DNA of 64,000 nt from positions 3,687,659 to 3,751,658 of the forward strand of contig CP091278.1 of assembly GCA_021650895.1 (NCBI GenBank). The letters are read 5' to 3'. This document shows, piece by piece, positions 4,451-51,234 of the stretch. Position numbers and translations under genes: made by a program. Position 1 is the first letter of the stretch. The number at the start of each line of letters is the position of its first letter. The notes under the pieces are model-generated. The model was not told the origin of the DNA. It saw nothing but the letters and a program-made list of their open reading frames with translations, and ran no database searches. The stretch comes from Candidatus Jettenia sp. GTDB lineage: Bacteria > Planctomycetota > Brocadiia > Brocadiales > Brocadiaceae.

Positions 4451-7400
4451 ATGAAAAATCTTTTGAAATTATTGCATCAAAACAAGCAATACAAGGAGAT
4501 TGTTTCTCATGTATTGAGAGGGGATGATTGTTCTGTCAATGGACTATGGGGATCATCTGCAAACTTTTTTATTACAGCAATTGCCAATGAGAGACTGAAG
4601 AGAATTGAGAAACAGCCAAAGATCCTTCTTGTTGTACCCACTCTAGAAGAGGCTCAGGATGATCTTGAAGACCTGAATACCTTTCTCCAAAACCATGTCA
4701 GTTTATTTCCTGCCAATGAAAGTATCTTTCCTGAAGATTTCAGTGATAATGATATTTTGGCGCAAAGGATTCATATCCTCAAGCAGATACTCCACAGCGA
4801 TAGCAATTCCCGAAGCAAACTGGATATTATTGTATCGCCTATTCAGGCACTGTTACAACCCGTGCCGTCTCCTCAATCCCTTTCTGAAAACATCCTCTGC
4901 ATTCGGAAGAACCAGGAACACTCCCGTGATAAACTCATTCTATGGTTGCAGGATCACCATTATCAATCGGTTAGCCAGATAGAAAATGCCGGAGAATATG
5001 CCCTGCGGGGCGGTATTGTTGATATTTTTCCTTATGCCTCTGATGTTCCTTACCGTATTGAGTATTTTGGCGATGAGATAGAATCCATCCGTGGATTTAA
5101 TCTCGAATCCCAATTATCCGAACAAGATTTAGATACATGTCAAATACTTTCTCTCGATAGGATTCATCGTGTGGCACAGACACACGCTGCCGGATTGGAA
5201 TCACAAAAAACGTCACTCCTCGACTATCTTAAGAAAGATACCTGGATTATTCTCAAAGAACCTGCAAGCCTGGAAGATCGGACGAGAAAAATATTGATCG
5301 ATGTAGATAACAGAAGGACATTGCTTACCGAGGATGAAATTTTTGGACAATTAAGTACCTTTACGAAGATACACATATCGAAGCTACCCTTTGTACTTGA
5401 CAACAGTAATTATACATTTCACGTTAAATCGGTGAATGATTTTCCTCAAAATATTCAGGCAATTATACCGGAACTGAGCAAGATAACTGATATCAACACG
5501 AAAACGATCGTTTTCTGTAATAATAGTGCTGAAGAGCAACGCTTTCAGGAGATTATTCATACTCTACCCGCAAAAGAAAATGGACGATTAGAGCTCCGTA
5601 TTGGTCATCTCCACAAAGGATTTCAATTCTCTGATATAGGGATTGCTATCCTTGCACACCACGAAATCTTTCATCGTTATAGGCAGCGCCGCGAGCCGAA
5701 AAAGCCTATCCAGACCAGGGCAATTGACTCTTTTCTGGAATTGAAAAGAGGCGATTATATAGTTCACATGACTCATGGTATTGGACGCTTTCGGGGGATG
5801 GAAACGTTAGAAGAGGAAGGGCATAAGAGGGAATATCTCATAGTGGAGTTTGACGAGGGCACAAAGATATATGTGCCTGCTACTAAAATTGAGCTGGTAC
5901 AAAAGTATATCGGCAGTTCAGACCACAAACCCAGGCTTGATAAGATTGGTTCAAAATATTGGGAAGTTCGAAAAAGACGAACGGAAAATGCTGTCAAAGA
6001 TGTTGCAAGCGATTTGCTTCATATCCAGGCATTGCGCAACGCAAAGGAAGGCATTGTTTATCCGAAAGATACAGAGTGGCAGAAAGAGTTTGAAGCGGAA
6101 TTTATCTACGAGGAAACCCCCGATCAACTCCAAATTATAGAGGATATAAAGCGTGATATGGAATCGGAAAGACCTATGGACCGGCTTATTTGTGGAGACG
6201 TCGGTTATGGGAAAACAGAGATCGCCATGAGGGCGGCTTTCAAGGCTGTGATGTATGGGAAGCAAGTGGCAGTGCTGGTACCCACGACTATCCTGGCACA
6301 ACAGCACTATAGTACCTTTTCAGAACGTATGGCCGATTATCCAGTCAAAATTGAAGTGTTAAGCCGGTTTAAAACACAAAAAGAGCAAAAGGATGTCCTG
6401 GAGAAGACCTCCGCAGGTCTTACCGATATCCTTATTGGTACTCACCGGCTGTTACAAAAAGATGTCCATTTTAAAGATCTTGGCTTGGTCATTATTGATG
6501 AAGAGCAGCGGTTTGGTGTTGAACATAAAGAGCGTCTTAAGAGGTTACGGCAAATGGTAGATGTGCTTACTTTGACAGCTACGCCAATACCGAGAACGCT
6601 CCATATGTCGTTAATGGGAATCAAGGATATTTCTTCACTCAATACACCTCCATCGGGCAGACAAGCTATCCATACACAGATTATCCGATTTGATCCCGCT
6701 CGGATTCGGCAAGCCATCATGTTTGAACTCAACCGAGATGGTCAGGTGTATTTTGTTCATAACCGTGTTTATAATATCGAGAGGATCGCTCAAACCTTAT
6801 CCAGGATTGTGCCGGAGGCGCGCATTACAACCCTTCATGGGCAGATGGATGAAAGGTTTATGGAACAAAGAATGCATGAATTTGTAGAAGGTAAGGCAGA
6901 TATCCTGGTATGTACGACAATTATTGAATCAGGGCTGGATATTCCCAATGTTAACACGATATTAATCAATTGCGCTGATACGTTTGGTCTAGCAGATTTA
7001 CATCAGTTACGGGGGAGGGTGGGGCGGTACAAACACCGCGCCTATGCCTATATGATATTACCTGTTGATCGTCCTATTACTCCGGAAGCAGAAAAACGTG
7101 TAAAAGCTGTTGAGGAATTTGCAGAGCTGGGCGCAGGCTTTCGAATCGCTATGCGCGATTTGGAAATCAGAGGCTCCGGAAACATCCTTGGAACGGAACA
7201 GCATGGCCATATTGCGGCTGTAGGTTATGAGATGTATTGCCGGTTATTAGAATTAGCGGTAAAAAAGGCAAGACACGAAACTGTACATGAGCCGATCGAG
7301 GTTTCCATCGACCTTAAACTGGAATCTTTTATTCCTAAAAACTATATTCAGGAAGATACTCTGAAAATGGATATCTATCGGAGATTAAACCGTTCCGTTA

Positions 7401-38010: not shown

Positions 38011-38646
38011 ATGAGTATCGTTATAGATATCGATTACCGCGAAAGAGATTCTGGGATTGCAGGGATACTACGGGCTAAAGAGAATTTTATTGTAGAAGAA
38101 AAGAAGTTATCAATTGGAGATTTTCTCATCAATAAGCATATCGCTGTTGAGAGAAAGACAACAAAGGACTTTATTATTTCCCTTATTGATGGACGGTTAT
38201 TTTCTCAGGCATCCCGATTAAGAAGACATGCTGAAGCGTAATTTATGGTAATAGAAGGTACTGACTTATTTCAAACCGGTTATAAGGTTGATCCACAGGC
38301 AATCAAAGGAGCCCTTATTTCGTTGTCTATTTCATGGCAAGTTCCTTTGATCTTTTCAAAATCTGCTCCTGGTACTGCTGAGATATTGATTATGGTAGGA
38401 GAGCAGGATGTTAAATACTGCGATGAGATATTAAAGAGAATGGGGAGAAAACCAAGGCGTGTTCAGGCACAAAAATTCTATTTTCTTCAAGGACTGCCTG
38501 GCATTGGACCAAGAATGGCAAAAAGGATATTAGAATATTTTGGGAGTGTAGAGAGGGTTATTACTGCAAATGAGCAGGAACTTGCTTGTGTGAAAGGAAT
38601 TGGCAGGAAGAAGGCATCCATGATCTGTAAGATTATTAAGGAATAA
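38011..38646 (+). pseudogene. ERCC4-type nuclease with HhH domain, split by in-frame stop
   Basis: The complete frame would encode an XPF/Mus81-like nuclease of about 211 residues. It has the ERCC4 core (IDIDYRERDSGI, LSIGDFLINKHIAVERKTTKDFIISLIDGRLFSQ), holding the RE-D-ERK catalytic residues, and a tandem helix-hairpin-helix end (LQGLPGIGPRMAKRIL, CVKGIGRKKASMI). A TAA at 38239 interrupts it after RLRRHAEA; the same frame continues at once with FMVIEGTDLFQTGYKVDP. An ATG at 38245 could restart the C-terminal part. It could be a nonsense mutation, a sequence error or two polypeptides. Its end lies 15 bases before the tRNA-like repeat. Confidence 0.75.
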
Positions 38647-38661
38647 ACCGAACTTGAATGA

Positions 38662-38704
38662 TGTTCAAGAGGTCATGGGTTCAAATCCCGCCACCCTGAC
38701 CAAT
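38662..38704 (+). other. tRNA 3'-end fragment, left copy (probable att site)
   Basis: A 43-base stretch reads as the 3' part of a tRNA: GGTCATGGGTTCAAATCCCG gives the T arm, and CCACCCTGACCA the acceptor strand, discriminator A and CCA. A 5' base C paired with G and A73 fits tRNA-Pro. The upstream half is absent, although CTTGA...TCAAG could be an anticodon-stem relic. A direct copy with one mismatch lies at 50638-50680. It is next to a recombinase remnant, as in integration into a tRNA 3' end. Confidence 0.75.
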
Positions 38705-44108: not shown

Positions 44109-45188
44109 TCATAGACTATGAGGGTGTATAAAAACTAAGTTTCCGCTTTTACTAAGCATTTCAATAATTTCTGATGCCAATTCCTTTTTAATACCGTCAT
44201 CAGATTTATCATAAATTAAAAAAGAAATCGGTTCCACACTGGTCGATTGAAAAGGATAACTCTTGATTTCTTCATGGTTCCAAAATTCTCCTCTAGCTTT
44301 GATAGAATAGAAAAAATTTAAATCACTTCCAATTATGACTATATAAATATCCTTATTTAAAAACGTATTGCTTTCTAAATTAAAGCAAATAGTATTAGAG
44401 GGAGATTTACTAGCGCACTTTATAGTTTTACCTAAGAATAAATCTTTATTCTTTTTTATTACTAATTCTTTTAGTTTCTTTATGACAAAATCAGGGACTT
44501 TATCAATATTTTCACTTATTGTTAAATCAATTTTAGTCCCATCTTCTAATTTAAAATCCTTTAAATACTCTACTAAAGGCTTTTTTATACTATGGTTTCT
44601 GAAAATTTCATTTAATTTGGTCTCGGAAGAATCCTGAACGAATTGTCGATCATTCGATAATATTAATACAAAATCTTCGGAAATTTGCTCATTTGGTAAC
44701 ACAGCAGAACATAGCACCAAACTATCCTCTTTTGATATTTTGGATGAAAGACAAATATCAAATGTTGGTTGTAATAAACCATTGTGAATTATATTTTTAG
44801 AATATTCTATTGAAAAGTCTTTTGTTATCTTTGAGAGTTCCTCCTCTACTTTTGTTTTAATGGTAAGTTGAATATCTTCAAATTTAACCTCAGGTGCTGA
44901 AAAATCATCTTTATATTTCAATAGAGAACTCATATTTAGAGTTCCCTCAGGTCCTTGACATTTCTTAACTAGTTCTCTAAGATAATGTTCTCTTTTTCTA
45001 ATTCCAACAAATTCAAAAATTACATAATGAGAGCTTACAAGATCAGAAAATGGACAGTTTTTTAGAAATTCAATAGTCTGAGTTAGACAAGGATAAGTTT
45101 TATCAAGTAAATAAGACAAAATCATTGTGTCTAAGTAAAAATTTATTCTAAAATTATCTATGATAGGGCTATCGCTCCACGCTTCCAT
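44109..45188 (-). CDS. PIN-like nuclease with C-terminal extension
   Basis: The 359-residue protein has PIN-domain acidic residues in order: FYLDTMILSYLLD (Asp near 19), YVIFEFVGIRKREH (Glu), ISKEDSLVLCSAV (Asp near 152) and VLILSNDRQF (Asp). This suggests a metal-dependent nuclease, more likely acting on RNA or single strands. Residues 200-359 form a second domain I do not recognise. It is the last gene of a four-gene operon, two bases after the ATPase gene. It is longer than VapC toxins (about 130 residues), and no small antitoxin gene is adjacent. Confidence 0.65.
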   Translation of the reverse strand: MEAWSDSPIIDNFRINFYLDTMILSYLLDKTYPCLTQTIEFLKNCPFSDLVSSHYVIFEFVGIRKREHYLRELVKKCQGPEGTLNMSSLLKYKDDFSAPEVKFEDIQLTIKTKVEEELSKITKDFSIEYSKNIIHNGLLQPTFDICLSSKISKEDSLVLCSAVLPNEQISEDFVLILSNDRQFVQDSSETKLNEIFRNHSIKKPLVEYLKDFKLEDGTKIDLTISENIDKVPDFVIKKLKELVIKKNKDLFLGKTIKCASKSPSNTICFNLESNTFLNKDIYIVIIGSDLNFFYSIKARGEFWNHEEIKSYPFQSTSVEPISFLIYDKSDDGIKKELASEIIEMLSKSGNLVFIHPHSL

Positions 45189-45189
45189 T

Positions 45190-46518
45190 TTATTCTATTT
45201 CTTTTGGAAGGTAATAATCAACAAATTTGTCATTAATAGTTTGTCCTTGTTGTAAACTTTCAACAGCCCTTTCAGTCAGGTAAAAGCATTTTTGAAGAAA
45301 TATTCTTGTGATCCCATCGACATCATTATTTATTTTTTCTATTCCGCTTAAATCAAAAGGAGTAACATCCTCACTTGCGTTAACCCGCGCAATATTTAAA
45401 TAATTAATAACTATTTTTTTTGCTTGTTCATTATTTAACTTGTTTAAAAATATTGAGCGATTGCTAATTCTATCCGCTAATGGTGGGGAGACACTTCTAA
45501 GTTTTTTTAAAGCGTTTCCCGTCATTGCAAATAATAAACACCATTCCCTGTGCTCATCTAACAATGTTCTCAAATTGTATACATAATTATCAACTTGGGT
45601 TTTGGATAAGCGCCCTTCTGTAATATCTTCAAATTCATCAACTAAAATATAAAAATCCGTATATTCCTGTTCTTTTACAAGCGTAACAATTGCTCTTATG
45701 ATATCAATATCTTTTCTATCTAAGCGTTTTCCACTCCCCGAGGATATCACTTCCCAAGTTTTATTAACACCAAAATCATCGGAAACCAAATCATAGAAGT
45801 ATTTAGCTAATGTTGCATCATTAAATTCACCCTTTAAAATTTCAAATAATACTCCCTGAAATGTGGCCTCAAATTCTTTCCTTGACCTATTATCATAAAT
45901 GTTTCTAAGCCAAGCGTCTAAAAAAGCTTTATAGCTAACTAGATTGACAGGGTCATATGGATCTGGATTGTTTTCAGTTAAAAGACTTTTCTTATTAAGC
46001 TTGCCAAGCCTTTCTTTATAAGTTTTTGTATTTTTTATTTTTTCGATTATTTTATTCCAAATAAATTTCTTAAAATTTTCTTCTCCTATTTTAGATATAA
46101 TTGCACCAATTAATTCAGAAAGTTTTACTCCTGGATTATCAATGTATATAACATAAGGATTTTTGTAAAATTCTTTACTTTGGGAAGTAGCATCTAGTAA
46201 GTATCTTACGTACATTAGCAATTGAGTTTTTCCAGAACCATAATCTCCTATAATTACAGCCGTAAGTAATTTATCCTTTGGAGAAGCTGAAATAGAGTAC
46301 AATGAATCATAAACATAGTCATGAACTTGCTTGTATACAGTTTCATCAACTGGTACTAAATGACCAGCATGAACGTCACTATTAATATTTGTAGTTCCTG
46401 ATTTAGGGAAAGGATTAAACTTGAGTCCCAATTTATCATATTTTTTGTCAAGAGTTTTAGTCTGTGGCTGTCGCTGAGAAATTATTTGGCTTATGATATC
46501 TTCTCGGTTTTCCATCAT
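45190..46518 (-). CDS. P-loop ATPase of an accessory four-gene operon
   Basis: The 442-residue protein is an AAA-like (ORC/Cdc6-type) ATPase. Walker A is VIIGDYGSGKTQLLMY (about 90), Walker B FYILVDEFEDI (about 297), sensor 1 LLFAMTGNALKKL, and ADRISNRSIFLNKLN fits an arginine-finger/sensor area. The C-terminal helical part may be winged-helix. LKFNPFPKSG near the start recalls ATPases of defence systems that load onto DNA. It starts at MMENR; the second ATG is equally possible. It lies between the unknown and PIN genes with 2-4 base spacing, so products are probably made together. Confidence 0.75.
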   Translation of the reverse strand: MMENREDIISQIISQRQPQTKTLDKKYDKLGLKFNPFPKSGTTNINSDVHAGHLVPVDETVYKQVHDYVYDSLYSISASPKDKLLTAVIIGDYGSGKTQLLMYVRYLLDATSQSKEFYKNPYVIYIDNPGVKLSELIGAIISKIGEENFKKFIWNKIIEKIKNTKTYKERLGKLNKKSLLTENNPDPYDPVNLVSYKAFLDAWLRNIYDNRSRKEFEATFQGVLFEILKGEFNDATLAKYFYDLVSDDFGVNKTWEVISSGSGKRLDRKDIDIIRAIVTLVKEQEYTDFYILVDEFEDITEGRLSKTQVDNYVYNLRTLLDEHREWCLLFAMTGNALKKLRSVSPPLADRISNRSIFLNKLNNEQAKKIVINYLNIARVNASEDVTPFDLSGIEKINNDVDGITRIFLQKCFYLTERAVESLQQGQTINDKFVDYYLPKEIE

Positions 46519-46522
46519 AAAT

Positions 46523-47530
46523 TTATCTTAAAAATATGTGTGATATAAATGAGTCTTTATATTTTGGGAAAAGAATTATCTCTTTTTCCTTAATTACTTC
46601 GCGTTTTATAAAAATCTCAGACGTTCTTTCTAAACTCATTAATTCTTTATTTACAAGGTACTGCCAAATTATATAGTTCTTAATTTTATCAATAGGAAAT
46701 CTATATTCCATAGCAATTTTAAATATTAGCATTGGAATATAAATATGTTTACTTTTAAAATTAGCTTTTATATAGCTAAATAAATCTAATGTAATGTCAC
46801 TTTCATTTTTAAAATAAACACAAGTAATACTTTTGTCATTATTTATTAAGCTTATATCCAATTTCTTTAAATTAAATTTTTCAATTAAATTTAATTCACT
46901 CCCCCATTTTACAAATACATCCCAAAATCGCATTAAGTGCCTCATTTGCTCATTAATGTGGTAGACATCTGTATTATCTTTTAATTCATAAATGAAGGAA
47001 TCGCTAAACCTGCCTTTACTTTGAAAAACAAATAGCGGCTTAGAATTTTCTTTTAAGTAATTTTCACAAATTACTTCTAGCCTTTTTTCTCGGTTTTGTG
47101 TACTAGAACCGATAAACCACGATATAATTTCTTTAAACCTAAAATAATTAAAAAAAATATCTTTGAATACTATCAAATCTTCTATTGATAGAGGCGCGCC
47201 TAATTCTGCATTCTGAAAGACTAATTTTTTAACATTATAATCTCTATTAATTAGTCCAAAGTTTATTAATGCATTTAATTGTTCCAATATTCTTCTATCG
47301 TCCCATTCTTTATTTTCATATCTTACATTCTTCTTTATTAAATCGTAGTATTCTTTACTATTATTGAATTGTTTATGTTTAACGATTAAATATACATCTC
47401 TTAATTCTCTTAAAAAATAAATGTTTGAGAAACTCCATCCTTTACCATCCGTGTAAATCTGTGCTTCACTATCAAGAAGGGCGGGTAGTTCATATTTTTT
47501 TGATTTTGACAAATCAATATATTTTATCAT
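46523..47530 (-). CDS. Uncharacterised protein of the four-gene operon
   Basis: I do not recognise this 335-residue protein. It starts MIKYIDLSKSKKYELPALLD, is rich in Lys, Asn, Phe and aromatic residues, and seems mostly helical. Segments such as RRILEQLNALINFGLINRDY (about 80-100) and FIKREVIKEKEI near the end could be winged-helix modules. No catalytic motif, membrane segment or signal is visible. It overlaps the methyltransferase gene by 4 bases and is 4 bases from the ATPase gene. A DNA-binding or specificity role is a guess from context. Base content is extremely low in G+C (11 of 60 at 46801-46860). Confidence 0.6.
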   Translation of the reverse strand: MIKYIDLSKSKKYELPALLDSEAQIYTDGKGWSFSNIYFLRELRDVYLIVKHKQFNNSKEYYDLIKKNVRYENKEWDDRRILEQLNALINFGLINRDYNVKKLVFQNAELGAPLSIEDLIVFKDIFFNYFRFKEIISWFIGSSTQNREKRLEVICENYLKENSKPLFVFQSKGRFSDSFIYELKDNTDVYHINEQMRHLMRFWDVFVKWGSELNLIEKFNLKKLDISLINNDKSITCVYFKNESDITLDLFSYIKANFKSKHIYIPMLIFKIAMEYRFPIDKIKNYIIWQYLVNKELMSLERTSEIFIKREVIKEKEIILFPKYKDSFISHIFLR

Positions 47531-48792
47531 TTCAGAATCAAAACATTTTCTGTTAATTCAAGGCTATGTCTATATTTCAACGACCTCCATTTTGTTCCTC
47601 TTGCCCTGATTCTATGTATTTCATACCCATTAAATCCAACATTTATAGCTATTTTGCCAAGAGTATCTGTCGTTGAAATTAATACACCATAAGGAGCGGA
47701 ATCTCCTAATATCATATATACTTTACCAAATTGTTTCAATATACGTCTTATTTCTTTTAAAACATTGTGCATATCTTGAAAATAGTAAAGCAATAATATA
47801 TCATAACTTTTCTTGCCAAGGCGATTTTTGCTTATTTCTTTTATTTCAATGGCTTTTTCAATTAAATCTTCCCCTATTGTTTTATTATTTTGGTAAAATT
47901 CTCCAGTTTTCCAATCGTGAAGGTTAAATTGATTTTCCGAATAATGGGTTGTAGCACCAATAACGAGCTTTTTTCTAACCTTATTTGTTATATCATTCCA
48001 GCTACTTGTTATACCAAAAAAATGTGAGTGTACTTTCGAAATTTCACCATAATCTAAATTATTCAGATAAGGTGGAGAAGTTATACAGATATTACAGGAT
48101 TTTTCTGTTATTTTATTATTACATTTTCTTGAGTCATGAAAATAAATTTTAGATGTCTTTTTAAAGTTTTTAAATTCTTTTGTATCTTCAAGCATTTTTA
48201 GAGATATGCGATTGAAAGTCTCCCATCCAGAGGAATCATTTATTAGCCTTTTATTTCTCGAAATATAAGGAATAGAGATAGGATGTTTAGATACTTTATG
48301 TAAGGTTTGACTTAGTGCGAGCTTAAAAAATAAGTAATAACTCCTTTCGCATTTTATCTTAGTTAGATAATCTTTAATTAAATAGAGTTCTTTTAAAATT
48401 TCATCCTCATAAAGTGTTTTTAATAGAGGATGAGCAACATTATCAATATTTGATTGCTTTATTCTTTGCTTTAAATGAATCTGTATATTCTTTAAGTGTT
48501 CATTTAATTTGTTGCCACACAGATTCCAGTTTAGTTTTGCTTGTATTACTTCGTACATAAAATTTTGCCCCTCATTTCCAACTGCAGGTATTCCCTTTTT
48601 CTGTGCTGATACTAGAGTAGTTCCGCACCCGGCAAACGGGTCAAATATTTTATGGTCGAAGTTTAAATTTTCTAAAGTAATAATCTCATCAATAAACTTG
48701 TACGAGAAGCCAGCGGTGAACTTATACCAGTTATGAACAGGACTTTTAAAATTGTCCCTCGCTGTTCCTATTTCTGTTTGTAAGTTAAACAT
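47527..48792 (-). CDS. DNA methyltransferase (SPPY type) of the four-gene operon
   Basis: The 421-residue protein has motif I IFDPFAGCGTTLVSAQ (about 53) followed much later by motif IV ITSPPYLNNLDYGE (about 240). SPPY is common in N4-cytosine enzymes, although N6-adenine remains possible. The roughly 180 residues between the two motifs are unusually long and may hold target recognition. Later blocks MHNVLKEIRRILKQFGKVYMILGDSA are motif-VI-like. An ATG at 48792 (MFNLQTEIG) is preferred over an upstream TTG at 48813. It leads the operon and may protect host DNA. Confidence 0.8.
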   Translation of the reverse strand: MFNLQTEIGTARDNFKSPVHNWYKFTAGFSYKFIDEIITLENLNFDHKIFDPFAGCGTTLVSAQKKGIPAVGNEGQNFMYEVIQAKLNWNLCGNKLNEHLKNIQIHLKQRIKQSNIDNVAHPLLKTLYEDEILKELYLIKDYLTKIKCERSYYLFFKLALSQTLHKVSKHPISIPYISRNKRLINDSSGWETFNRISLKMLEDTKEFKNFKKTSKIYFHDSRKCNNKITEKSCNICITSPPYLNNLDYGEISKVHSHFFGITSSWNDITNKVRKKLVIGATTHYSENQFNLHDWKTGEFYQNNKTIGEDLIEKAIEIKEISKNRLGKKSYDILLLYYFQDMHNVLKEIRRILKQFGKVYMILGDSAPYGVLISTTDTLGKIAINVGFNGYEIHRIRARGTKWRSLKYRHSLELTENVLILK

Positions 48793-49570
48793 TATAATAT
48801 TATTTATTACCAAATTTATTAGATAAAAATTATATCGCTTTTGTCCCGAACACCAATTGTTCTTAATAAATCAAAAATCTATGCCTGCTATATGTTATAC
48901 GTTTTCCTGACCTTCGTATGTCATTTGTTCGTTTTATTATAGGAAGTCTATCAAAGTTGTTGAGAAAAATCATTGAAAAATTCATAATAACACAAATAAG
49001 ATAAAATTTTCTATAATGTACCCCAAAAATTGGACAATAAAATAAGATTAGGACTTGCGCATTTACCAAAGGAGATAGAGATCGGATTTTTACAATTGCT
49101 GTTTGAGAAGTGAAATTCAAGGAATACCATATTTAATTATTGGATTTATTTTAAACATAATTAAGATGCGGCCATGTTGAGGATCGCTCGCACGGTAGTC
49201 CTAGAAGTACCATATCATAACCTCAACATGGAAATCACCTGCTTGAGATGTTTGACAAGTAGAATGATTTTCTTTCCAGATCGAGATTTATTGTTATTCA
49301 AAATATGAGATCAGAATACCAATTTAAATTATTTACATCCTTCAAGAGTTAGAGATGTAGAACGGAAGGTTATAGAATTAGAAATAAGCTGATGAAACTG
49401 TTCATTGACTATGATGTATACAGAGTAACCATGATTTCTTAAGGAGACAATGAGAATTTTCAAATGATATTAAGGTTGTTAAGGGAGAAGGTTTATTGAC
49501 TTTACTCAGGTAAACGGTAATAATAAAAACAGGGTTTAGATGATTAGTTCAAAATATTGGAGGTTAGGAG
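48793..49570. other. Gene-free stretch with inverted repeat and IS-end-like sequence
   Basis: This stretch must contain the promoter of the four-gene operon. TGTACCCCAAAAATTGGACA at 49016-49035 resembles an IS3/IS481-type end, but no partner end or transposase is seen. CCATGTTGAGG at 49172-49182 and CCTCAACATGG at 49221-49231 are a perfect 11-bp inverted repeat with a 38-base centre. No gene is supported. Confidence 0.45.
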
Positions 49571-49774
49571 ATGAAAATTCAAGTAATTTTAGAACCAAGT
49601 GATGAAGGTGGATATACTGCAATCGTTCCAGCACTTCCTGGCTGTATAAGCGAAGGCAATACCAAGGAAGAGGCATTGGAAAACATTAGAGAAGCTATTG
49701 AGTTATATCTTGAACCAATTGAAGATGATTTGAGGTTTAACCCAAATATACAGGTCTTAGAAATTGCCATATGA
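49571..49774 (+). CDS. hicB: HicB-family antitoxin
   Basis: The 67-residue protein is the short HicB type: MKIQVILEPSDEGGYTAIVP, ALPGCISEGNTKEEALENIR and EAIELYLEP form the RNase-H-like core that binds HicA. There is no C-terminal DNA-binding domain, as in short HicB proteins. GGAGG at 49559-49563 precedes the ATG by 7 bases. It overlaps hicA by 4 bases (ATGA), in antitoxin-first order, which is common in this subgroup. Confidence 0.9.
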   Translation: MKIQVILEPSDEGGYTAIVPALPGCISEGNTKEEALENIREAIELYLEPIEDDLRFNPNIQVLEIAI

Positions 49775-49997
49775 CAAAAGTTCCTAGTTTGAATTACGGA
49801 CAGGTCATTAACGCTTTGCATCGGGATGGATGGATAGTTGTCCGCCAAAAAGGTAGTCACATACGTTTGCAGAAACGTGCAGCAGAAAAAATACTAAAGC
49901 TCACCGTTCCAGCACACAATCCTATCAAGGATCTACGTTATCTCATATCATGAAACAGGCACATTTATCAGTAGAGGAATTTACAAAATTATTATAA
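49771..49997 (+). pseudogene. hicA: HicA-family toxin with probable frameshift near the end
   Basis: HicA is an mRNA-cleaving toxin with a dsRBD-like fold. The frame gives VPSLNYGQVINALHRDGWIV and VRQKGSHIRLQKR, including the catalytic His of GSH. It ends early at 49953 after KDLRYLIS. The expected C-terminal helix is in the next frame, where MKQAHLSVEEFTKLL ends with a stop at 49997. One base gained or lost at about 49935-49955 explains this. The 60-residue product may be inactive. It overlaps hicB by 4 bases. Confidence 0.75.
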
Positions 49998-50195: not shown

Positions 50196-50423
50196 TTAGA
50201 GGCCAGAAGGCCTAATAAACGCGAAAGCAGCATAAAGTAAAACGGCTTGGATATCTTCAGTCTCTAATTCAGGGTAATCTTCAAGTAGTTCCTGTACCGT
50301 AATCCCAGCAGCTAATGCCTTCAAAATTTGTTCGACAGTAATTCTTAACCCTCTGATAGCTGGTTTACCAACCATTACTTCTGGATTAATGGTAATTCTG
50401 TCCAATAATTGTTTGGAATCCAT
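50196..50423 (-). CDS. DUF433 protein (probable antitoxin)
   Basis: The 75-residue protein has the DUF433 pattern: RITINPEVMVGKPAIRGLRI, TVEQILKALAAGITVQELLE and DYPELETEDIQAVLLYAA. Such proteins usually act as DNA-binding antitoxins to PIN-like (DUF5615) partners. GAAGGAAAG just before the ATG at 50423 fixes the start; an extension to 50441 is open. The last residues (FAFIRPSGL) diverge from the family, so the end may have been replaced. No toxin gene accompanies it here. Confidence 0.75.
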   Translation of the reverse strand: MDSKQLLDRITINPEVMVGKPAIRGLRITVEQILKALAAGITVQELLEDYPELETEDIQAVLLYAAFAFIRPSGL

Positions 50424-50637
50424 CTTTCCTTCTTTTTTCATTGCTTTTTGTGTAAATAGTTTGAGTGCAATTTTAACCTTAATTCTGGATTGTTATACGA
50501 CCGAACCTTAGAAAGCCACAGGAATTAACAGAAGATAAAGTAAGTTATAACCCATTCTGTTGTAATTAATTGCGGCCATAACAAACACAATATCAGTCAG
50601 TTATAAAAAACGCTAAAAATGTCCTTTTAACGAATAG

Positions 50638-50680
50638 TGTTCAAGAGGTCATGGGTTCAAATCCCGCCAACCTGACCAAT
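50638..50680 (+). other. tRNA 3'-end fragment, right copy (probable att site)
   Basis: The 43 bases equal 38662-38704 except for CCAACCTG in place of CCACCCTG. The T arm (GGGTTCAAATCCC) and ACCA end are intact, with no 5' half. Same orientation as the left copy, 12 kb away. Outside the repeat the flanks do not match. The remaining gap 50424-50745 has nothing else recognisable. Confidence 0.75.
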
Positions 50681-50745: not shown

Positions 50746-51234
50746 GTGGGTATTGTGATAAGTCCTTCAGAAATCAATTATCTGCTTCTTGCCAATGGAA
50801 AGAGTCTGGAGCCGCTCAGTGAGCAGATTCTCAGAGCGGGTTTACCGAAGAGTACGTATGCTCACCTTGATGAATCGGGATGGAAGACACAAGGGGTTTC
50901 AAAACATCTCTGGACGATCTGTACCAATACGTTTAGTTACTTTCAAATTCATCCCAGGAGAAATTTTTCTGTCGCAAATGAGCTTGTATCTTTCAATTCA
51001 TTGCTGAGAAAAAACGGTTAGTGAAGCGTTTCGATGAGATTATTTGTGTATCAACACCTTATTGATGAATTAAAGAAACGGCTCCACTTAACAGCTCAAA
51101 AGAAGAAGAAGAAACTCTTGATGTATCTCAAATACCCTGCTGTTTCCCCTGAGAATAATTGTACAGAGAGAGCGCTCAGGCATGCGGTAGTAATTTGTAA
51201 AATTAGTCATAGCGCTCGATCGGAAGATAGTTAA
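50746..51234 (+). pseudogene. IS66-family transposase remnant
   Basis: Two broken frames carry IS66 transposase blocks. AHLDESGWKTQGVSKHLWTI followed by TNTFSYFQIHPRRN corresponds to the DDE-region HxDETGW block, and KYPAVSPENNCTERALRHAV followed by ISHSARSED to the conserved NNxAERxLR end. A stop at 51019-51021 and frame loss separate them, and the N-terminal part is missing. No IS ends were found. It lies between the right att-like repeat and the chromosomal CNNM gene. Confidence 0.75.

Follow-up and report, generated by a model that had tools for sequence, protein, structure and literature searches.

What might four tightly packed genes accomplish together that encode a DNA methyltransferase, a protein of no described family, an ATPase and a nuclease? 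The question is posed by positions 44109-48792 on the minus strand of a 64-kb stretch (the window in the following) from the complete, 3.82-Mb genome of Candidatus Jettenia sp., which by its gene content and the taxonomic groups of its matches appears to be an anammox-type planctomycete of the Brocadiales. Four intact open reading frames (ORFs) follow each other here head to tail, coding for the methyltransferase (MT), the familyless protein (UNK), an ATPase of the origin recognition complex (ORC)/Cdc6 type (ATP) and a nuclease with a PIN domain (PIN). MT and UNK overlap by 4 bases, whereas UNK and ATP are separated by 4 bases and ATP and PIN by a single base (Table 1). The original prediction for this DNA had described four minus-strand genes with overlaps or gaps of no more than 4 bases, and its coordinates, gene order and all four gene assignments were upheld. 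The cassette, 4.7 kb for four proteins, has a G+C content of 28.7%, compared to 38.6 ± 1.8% (minimum 35.0%) in 501 overlapping segments of 4.7 kb elsewhere in the window, which places it approximately 5.5 standard deviations below them; the G+C content of the UNK gene is 25.1%. The low G+C content had been claimed before on the basis of counts by hand, which proved to be right when they were repeated (11 of 60 bases at 46801-46860 against 32 of 60 in mfd at 6181-6240). We propose that the cassette is probably a rare defense system resembling restriction-modification (R-M), in which MT marks self DNA, UNK and ATP survey DNA and PIN serves as the effector.

A chance grouping of the four genes is unlikely, because a search seeded with ATP alone recovered loci with the same gene order and a search seeded with UNK recovered one more. 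Scanning 84,980 genomes for the ATPase yielded 18 loci; the scan was based on an alignment (A1) with synthetic extra rows, whose sole purpose was to direct the search patterns towards Walker A and Walker B, and the matches were confirmed against the real protein. Eleven of the 18 loci, at least 33% identical to the ATPase, represent eight lineages besides the host, since L009, L010, L011 and L015 are near-identical. In every one of these 11 loci, a methylase, UNK and PIN surround the ATPase in the order of the host. The order MT-UNK-ATP-PIN occurs in L006, L007, L008, L009 (and the near-identical L010, L011 and L015), L012 (with split frames for ATP and PIN), L013, L016 and L032, and these eight further lineages with the same four genes belong to Bacteroidota, Balneolota and one Acidobacteriota metagenome-assembled genome (MAG). 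The Acidobacteriota are represented by L006, whose phylum label calls for caution because it comes from a MAG contig. A ninth lineage is represented by L014 (3452-8203), located at a contig end of a Cytophagales MAG, where MT is replaced by a combination of HEAT-repeat and N6_N4 methylase. The original prediction had named the lack of any recurrence as a refutation, and the gene set does recur, in several phyla. Defense-type genes lie beside it in several loci: the host has a type IIG-like restriction gene nearby, in L009 and its relatives MT is preceded at a distance of 13 bases by AbiEi/AbiEii genes, an AbiEii pair is found in L007, SIR2 and STAND genes in L011 and L015 and a PIN_8 gene in L013.

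Despite this spread, the cassette is rare. A search with UNK in 394 sampled Bacteroidota genomes detected a single genome beyond the seeds (1 new in 392), L032, in which the operon directly adjoins genes for a relaxase and a TraG-like coupling protein. The cassette was not found in 198 further Acidobacteriota genomes, nor with UNK in 97 relatives or with ATP in 293 Planctomycetota genomes. Viral contigs gave nothing in single-protein pattern scans with ATP and UNK and nothing with a steered probe and real alignments either, while tblastn searches of plasmids with ATP, UNK and PIN and a search of phages with ATP returned no match. When the four proteins were concatenated for a tree, the closest rows to the window were L007 (Bacteroidota), L008 (Balneolota) and L006; support for this position is weak, and it is compatible with a transfer from the Bacteroidota side. 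A locus from Vicinamibacterales (L017, 6941-11200) was rejected as a member: relatives of ATP and MT occur there in a compact four-gene run with similar gene sizes, but in a different order and together with two other proteins without detectable homology to UNK or PIN. It is possibly a sister system.

MT contains motif I as DPFAGCGTT and motif IV as TSPPY, both conserved in its homologues, and is 49-62% identical to the product of the first gene in nine homologous operons. Its ATG start is backed by the homologues, and an in-frame TTG is present at 48813. The SPPY motif has an established association with N4-methylcytosine, which for this reason is the most likely product of MT, and one distant relative is annotated as an N4-cytosine methylase. 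The closest PADLOC model is a type II methylase (PDLC03306), and distant relatives of MT are paired with endonucleases in plain type II systems, for example with an AvaI/BsoBI-family enzyme in L004. From this side, the cassette could be regarded as an ordinary type II R-M system in which UNK acts as the restriction endonuclease and ATP and PIN are passengers. We consider this improbable, because the invariant residues of UNK (K30, W32, W76, R79, E83, N86, R131, E134, R201, W203, H331 and others) form no recognizable PD-(D/E)XK, HNH or GIY-YIG site, UNK co-diverges more with PIN and ATP than with MT, and all four genes are kept together. Across eight loci, the Mantel correlations among the distance matrices of UNK, PIN and ATP were 0.86, 0.75 and 0.75 (p ≤ 0.002), whereas those involving MT were 0.60, 0.48 and 0.36. 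Together with the methylase swap in L014, the lower correlation of MT suggests that UNK, ATP and PIN form a constant core, for which the methylase can be exchanged. The natural swap makes it directly testable which of the two, methylase or reader, determines the target specificity.

For UNK, the candidate reader, neither Pfam nor NCBIfam nor PADLOC offers a family, and its matches in PHROGs were at chance level. Its AlphaFold2 model (pLDDT 86.4, pTM 0.86) comprises helices at residues 40-52, 58-68 and 78-90 with a wing, followed by helices between 116 and 162 with strands and by helices between 250 and 293 with strands at 298-303 and 327-334, and reads as three winged-helix-like modules. Several tandem winged-helix proteins are among its weak fold matches, none of which is significant.

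In ATP, the Walker A (GDYGSGKT, residues 91-98) and Walker B (VDEFE, residues 293-297) residues are invariant among the homologues, as is R350. PF10923 (BrxC_BrxD) is matched by ATP with 26.3 bits at a cut-off of 22.2 and by eight of nine homologues, and the same proportion of homologues matches the PADLOC BrxD model; against the BrxD model of NCBIfam, ATP reached 16.9 bits, which is under the cut-off of 350. Matches to the PADLOC mad8 model were obtained for six of the nine homologues (best 1.8e-4) and to the SspC model for one of the nine (0.014), and comparison of ATP with two SspC sequences in hhalign gave a probability of 50% and an E-value of 1.6e-4. Judged by these profiles, ATP appears to group with BrxC/BrxD, Mad8 and, weakly, SspC, the likeness to the latter being one at the level of the clade. 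In two Thermoproteota loci (L018, 205-1572; L019, 7345-11257), a protein distantly related to the ATPase (PF10923, 2.3e-16) is encoded directly upstream of cas1 and of genes that read as cas2 and cas4. An unassigned gene for 235 amino acids precedes it in L019. This relative might be an ATPase of the ORC type that belongs to a CRISPR adaptation module.

For PIN, fold comparison of the model (pLDDT 83.9) retrieved VapC toxins with a Foldseek probability of 1.00, and the Pfam PIN family was matched by three members of the homologue set (best 3.7e-8), while no PADLOC model was matched. The acidic tetrad D20, E59, D155 and D180 is invariant in nine of nine proteins; in the place of the asparagine of the usual DTN motif, the host protein has M and the protein of L032 has Q. 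The beta-rich C-terminal domain of approximately 140 residues is without a family in the searched libraries, and with UNK it adds two protein families that are contained in none of Pfam, NCBIfam and PADLOC as searched. With VapC toxins as the best structural matches, PIN might act in abortive infection: UNK and ATP would sense unmodified or replicating phage DNA, PIN would shut down the cell as an RNase directed against tRNA or mRNA, and MT would set the threshold or act in an antitoxin-like manner. Among the components that accompany BREX and Dnd, PIN domains are listed as endoRNase effectors (PMC12839542, PMC10853773), and PIN RNases have validated roles in defense (PMC13092281). Nevertheless, we regard abortive infection as possible but rather unlikely, because a methylase in the fixed core is better suited for direct discrimination between self and non-self DNA. 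Furthermore, the specificity of VapC cannot be transferred to PIN, because the C-terminal domain of PIN is undescribed.

In the R-M-like defense that we favor, MT would methylate a short motif in the host DNA, probably forming N4-methylcytosine, and would thereby set a mark of self. UNK would bind or read DNA through its three winged-helix-like modules, and ATP would assemble on DNA as an AAA+ oligomer of the ORC/Cdc6 type and drive the survey of DNA together with UNK at the expense of ATP. On encountering unmodified, foreign DNA, the complex would license PIN, which would cut nucleic acid, either DNA or RNA, so that the invader or the infected cell is stopped. We infer self-marking, the reader role of UNK, the triggering by unmethylated DNA and the effector role of PIN, while the surveying core of UNK and ATP is proposed because of the analogy with SspB/SspC and BrxA/BrxC. 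The defense role as such, which the original prediction had assigned, likewise follows by inference from architecture and context, both of which fit: the location in an island, the defense-type neighbors and the combination of modification, ATPase and nuclease.

Several observations weigh against this scheme. Most PIN domains of this type are RNases, so that PIN would be unusual in direct restriction, and apart from the ATPase the cassette has neither a helicase nor a translocase. It is also possible that MT is an ordinary type II methylase that was recruited for another purpose. The fold search with UNK in PDB and BFVD returned nothing below an E-value of 0.001, and hhalign comparisons with DUF4007, BrxA and SspC were negative, although this test is weak, as DUF4007 and BrxA also miss each other. 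The reader role of UNK rests on the pattern of its modules, since neither profile homology nor a significant fold match in PDB points to it. A more far-reaching version of the proposal is that the cassette constitutes an undescribed, self-contained form of modification-dependent immunity, in which the genome is marked by the methylase, a new family of winged-helix readers cooperates with an ORC-ring ATPase and PIN executes the response. PIN would then be the first enzyme of its kind to restrict DNA in dependence on methylation, or else the cassette would be a restriction system that kills through RNA. We put this forward tentatively, with doubt slightly prevailing over confidence.

Table 1. 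Positions of the four cassette genes and of other features of the island within the window.
Feature	Position	Strand	Basis and remarks
MT, SPPY DNA methyltransferase, 421 aa	47527-48792	-	N6_N4_Mtase 9e-9 (Pfam); PADLOC MTase_II PDLC03306 2e-47
UNK, 335 aa, undescribed family, candidate DNA reader	46523-47530	-	Second gene; homologues 27-46% identical
ATP, BrxC/BrxD-like AAA+ ATPase of the ORC/Cdc6 type, 442 aa	45190-46518	-	PF10923; PADLOC BrxD
PIN, PIN-domain nuclease (approximately residues 1-215) with beta-rich C-terminal domain, 359 aa	44109-45188	-	Fold; Pfam PIN in homologues
Type IIG-like restriction enzyme/methylase, 1334 aa	39883-43887	+	Eco57I 1.7e-33, TaqI_C 2.5e-15, HSDR_N 3.7e-6; PADLOC DrmMI/IIG
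HicB/HicA-like toxin-antitoxin pair and DUF433 protein	49571-49953 and 50196-50441		Inside island
Left island boundary repeat	38656-38704	+	tRNA-Pro(GGG) 3' end without 5' half
Right island boundary repeat	50632-50680	+	tRNA-Pro(GGG) 3' end

That the cassette sits in an island had been predicted as well, and the island could now be delimited by two direct repeats of 49 nucleotides that correspond to the 3' end of tRNA-Pro(GGG) and are 94% identical to each other. The repeat has four copies in the genome, of which the one at 1012617 lies within an intact tRNA-Pro(GGG) gene. The approximately 12 kb between the boundary repeats accommodate the operon, the HicAB pair, the DUF433 protein and the type IIG-like gene. 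The latter is convergent to the operon and stands outside the four-gene cassette; its product has an HSDR_N-like N-terminus and also resembles DrmMI and PglX. No integrase was recognized inside the island, and an Rfam scan of it gave no match. A genome of the same genus (G002) has flanks with 95-98% DNA identity, one copy of the repeat and, between the flanks, approximately 8.3 kb of different, transposase-rich DNA, while in a genome of another genus of the family (G005) the flanking genes for an ERCC4-type and a CNNM-type protein are adjacent with no repeat between them, so that the site appears empty. Comparison of these genomes indicates that the island was acquired horizontally and occupies a tRNA-like site of variable content. 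The ERCC4-type nuclease gene (38011-38646) is broken by an in-frame stop codon in the host, whereas the sister genome has a single frame of 211 amino acids (L056, 1783-2418), and remnants of an IS66-type transposase (50746-51234) lie just beyond the right repeat.

The setting is mobile both in the host, with its tRNA-Pro repeats, and in L032, with the relaxase/TraG element. Location in an island and in an integrative and conjugative element, as well as rarity, would also fit a function outside of defense, namely a module with an epigenetic or maintenance role in mobile elements that, for example, protects an integrative element or regulates its transfer. This appears very improbable, because the cassette occurs in several unlike contexts beside different defense genes, and an effector-type nuclease is conserved in every copy.

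How BREX and Ssp bring about restriction is still debated, and the cassette has the same logical parts as these systems. Since it is small, has a likely effector of known nuclease fold and does without PglZ, helicase or phosphorothioation, it could become a tractable model for the coupling of DNA modification and restriction by ATPases of the ORC/Cdc6 type. A system of these four families was not found in PADLOC (copy dated 2023), NCBIfam or Pfam, and we found no description of the four-gene set in the literature covered, which did not extend to preprint servers, subscription papers and supplementary tables. The earlier statement that the set matches no known system holds for the catalogues searched, but has to be qualified in that the core of reader and ORC ATPase resembles SspBC and the BrxA/BrxC(D) proteins of BREX. 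The absence of a helicase, a restriction subunit and PglZ was confirmed for the four genes and their homologues by profile searches and inspection of neighbors. For PglZ, this comprised profiles for the four genes, inspection of the flanking ORFs in the window and, beside the homologous operons, inspection and profiles of selected neighbors.

In SspABCD systems, SspB with multiple winged helix-turn-helix (wHTH) domains pairs with the ORC/Cdc6 ATPase SspC, and the pair was proposed to encircle and scan DNA (PMC10853773, PMC12707154). Fast-evolving proteins with two to four wHTH domains next to ORC ATPases are reported to be a recurrent theme (PMC10853773). The DNA-recognizing SspB, SspC and the DNA-modifying enzyme of Ssp may have their counterparts in UNK, ATP and MT. 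The cassette differs from Ssp in that it is predicted to methylate DNA and not to introduce phosphorothioation, a PAPS reductase like SspD being absent from the operon and the homologous loci. ATP, with 442 residues, matches the SspC model of 1053 positions only weakly, and PIN is a fixed component of the cassette. In BREX, the tandem-HTH protein BrxA binds BrxC (PMC12839542), which shows ATP-dependent DNA binding and heptamer-like assemblies (PMC12839542, PMC13326643). The cassette resembles BREX (types 1-6) and BREX-related systems in its PF10923-type ATPase and DNA methyltransferase and, by analogy of UNK with the multi-HTH proteins BrxA and DUF4007 (PMC12839542), possibly in its reader. 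However, ATP is shorter than BrxC and has the size of BrxD, BrxB, BrxL, a helicase and a large PglX with N6-adenine motifs are missing from the cassette and its homologues, and the nuclease is a PIN protein. MT is an SPPY/N6_N4_Mtase protein and not PglX, while the PglX-like protein of the island is encoded by the separate type IIG-like gene. With MADS, the cassette has a methylase and a Mad8-related ATPase in common, but no other protein of mad1-8 is matched by the four genes. Helicase/translocase restriction subunits or DndBCDE genes, as expected for type I and III R-M, DISARM and Dnd/DndFGH, are absent from the four genes and their homologues. With type II R-M of the AvaI/BsoBI type, it shares the SPPY methylase family, but has an ATPase and PIN alongside, and a classical endonuclease was not recognized in it. 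While the cassette thus lacks defining features of BREX, Ssp, MADS, type I and III R-M, DISARM and Dnd, we place the cassette near the group of systems that combine DNA modification with an ORC ATPase, because UNK, ATP and MT would work together in a similar way.

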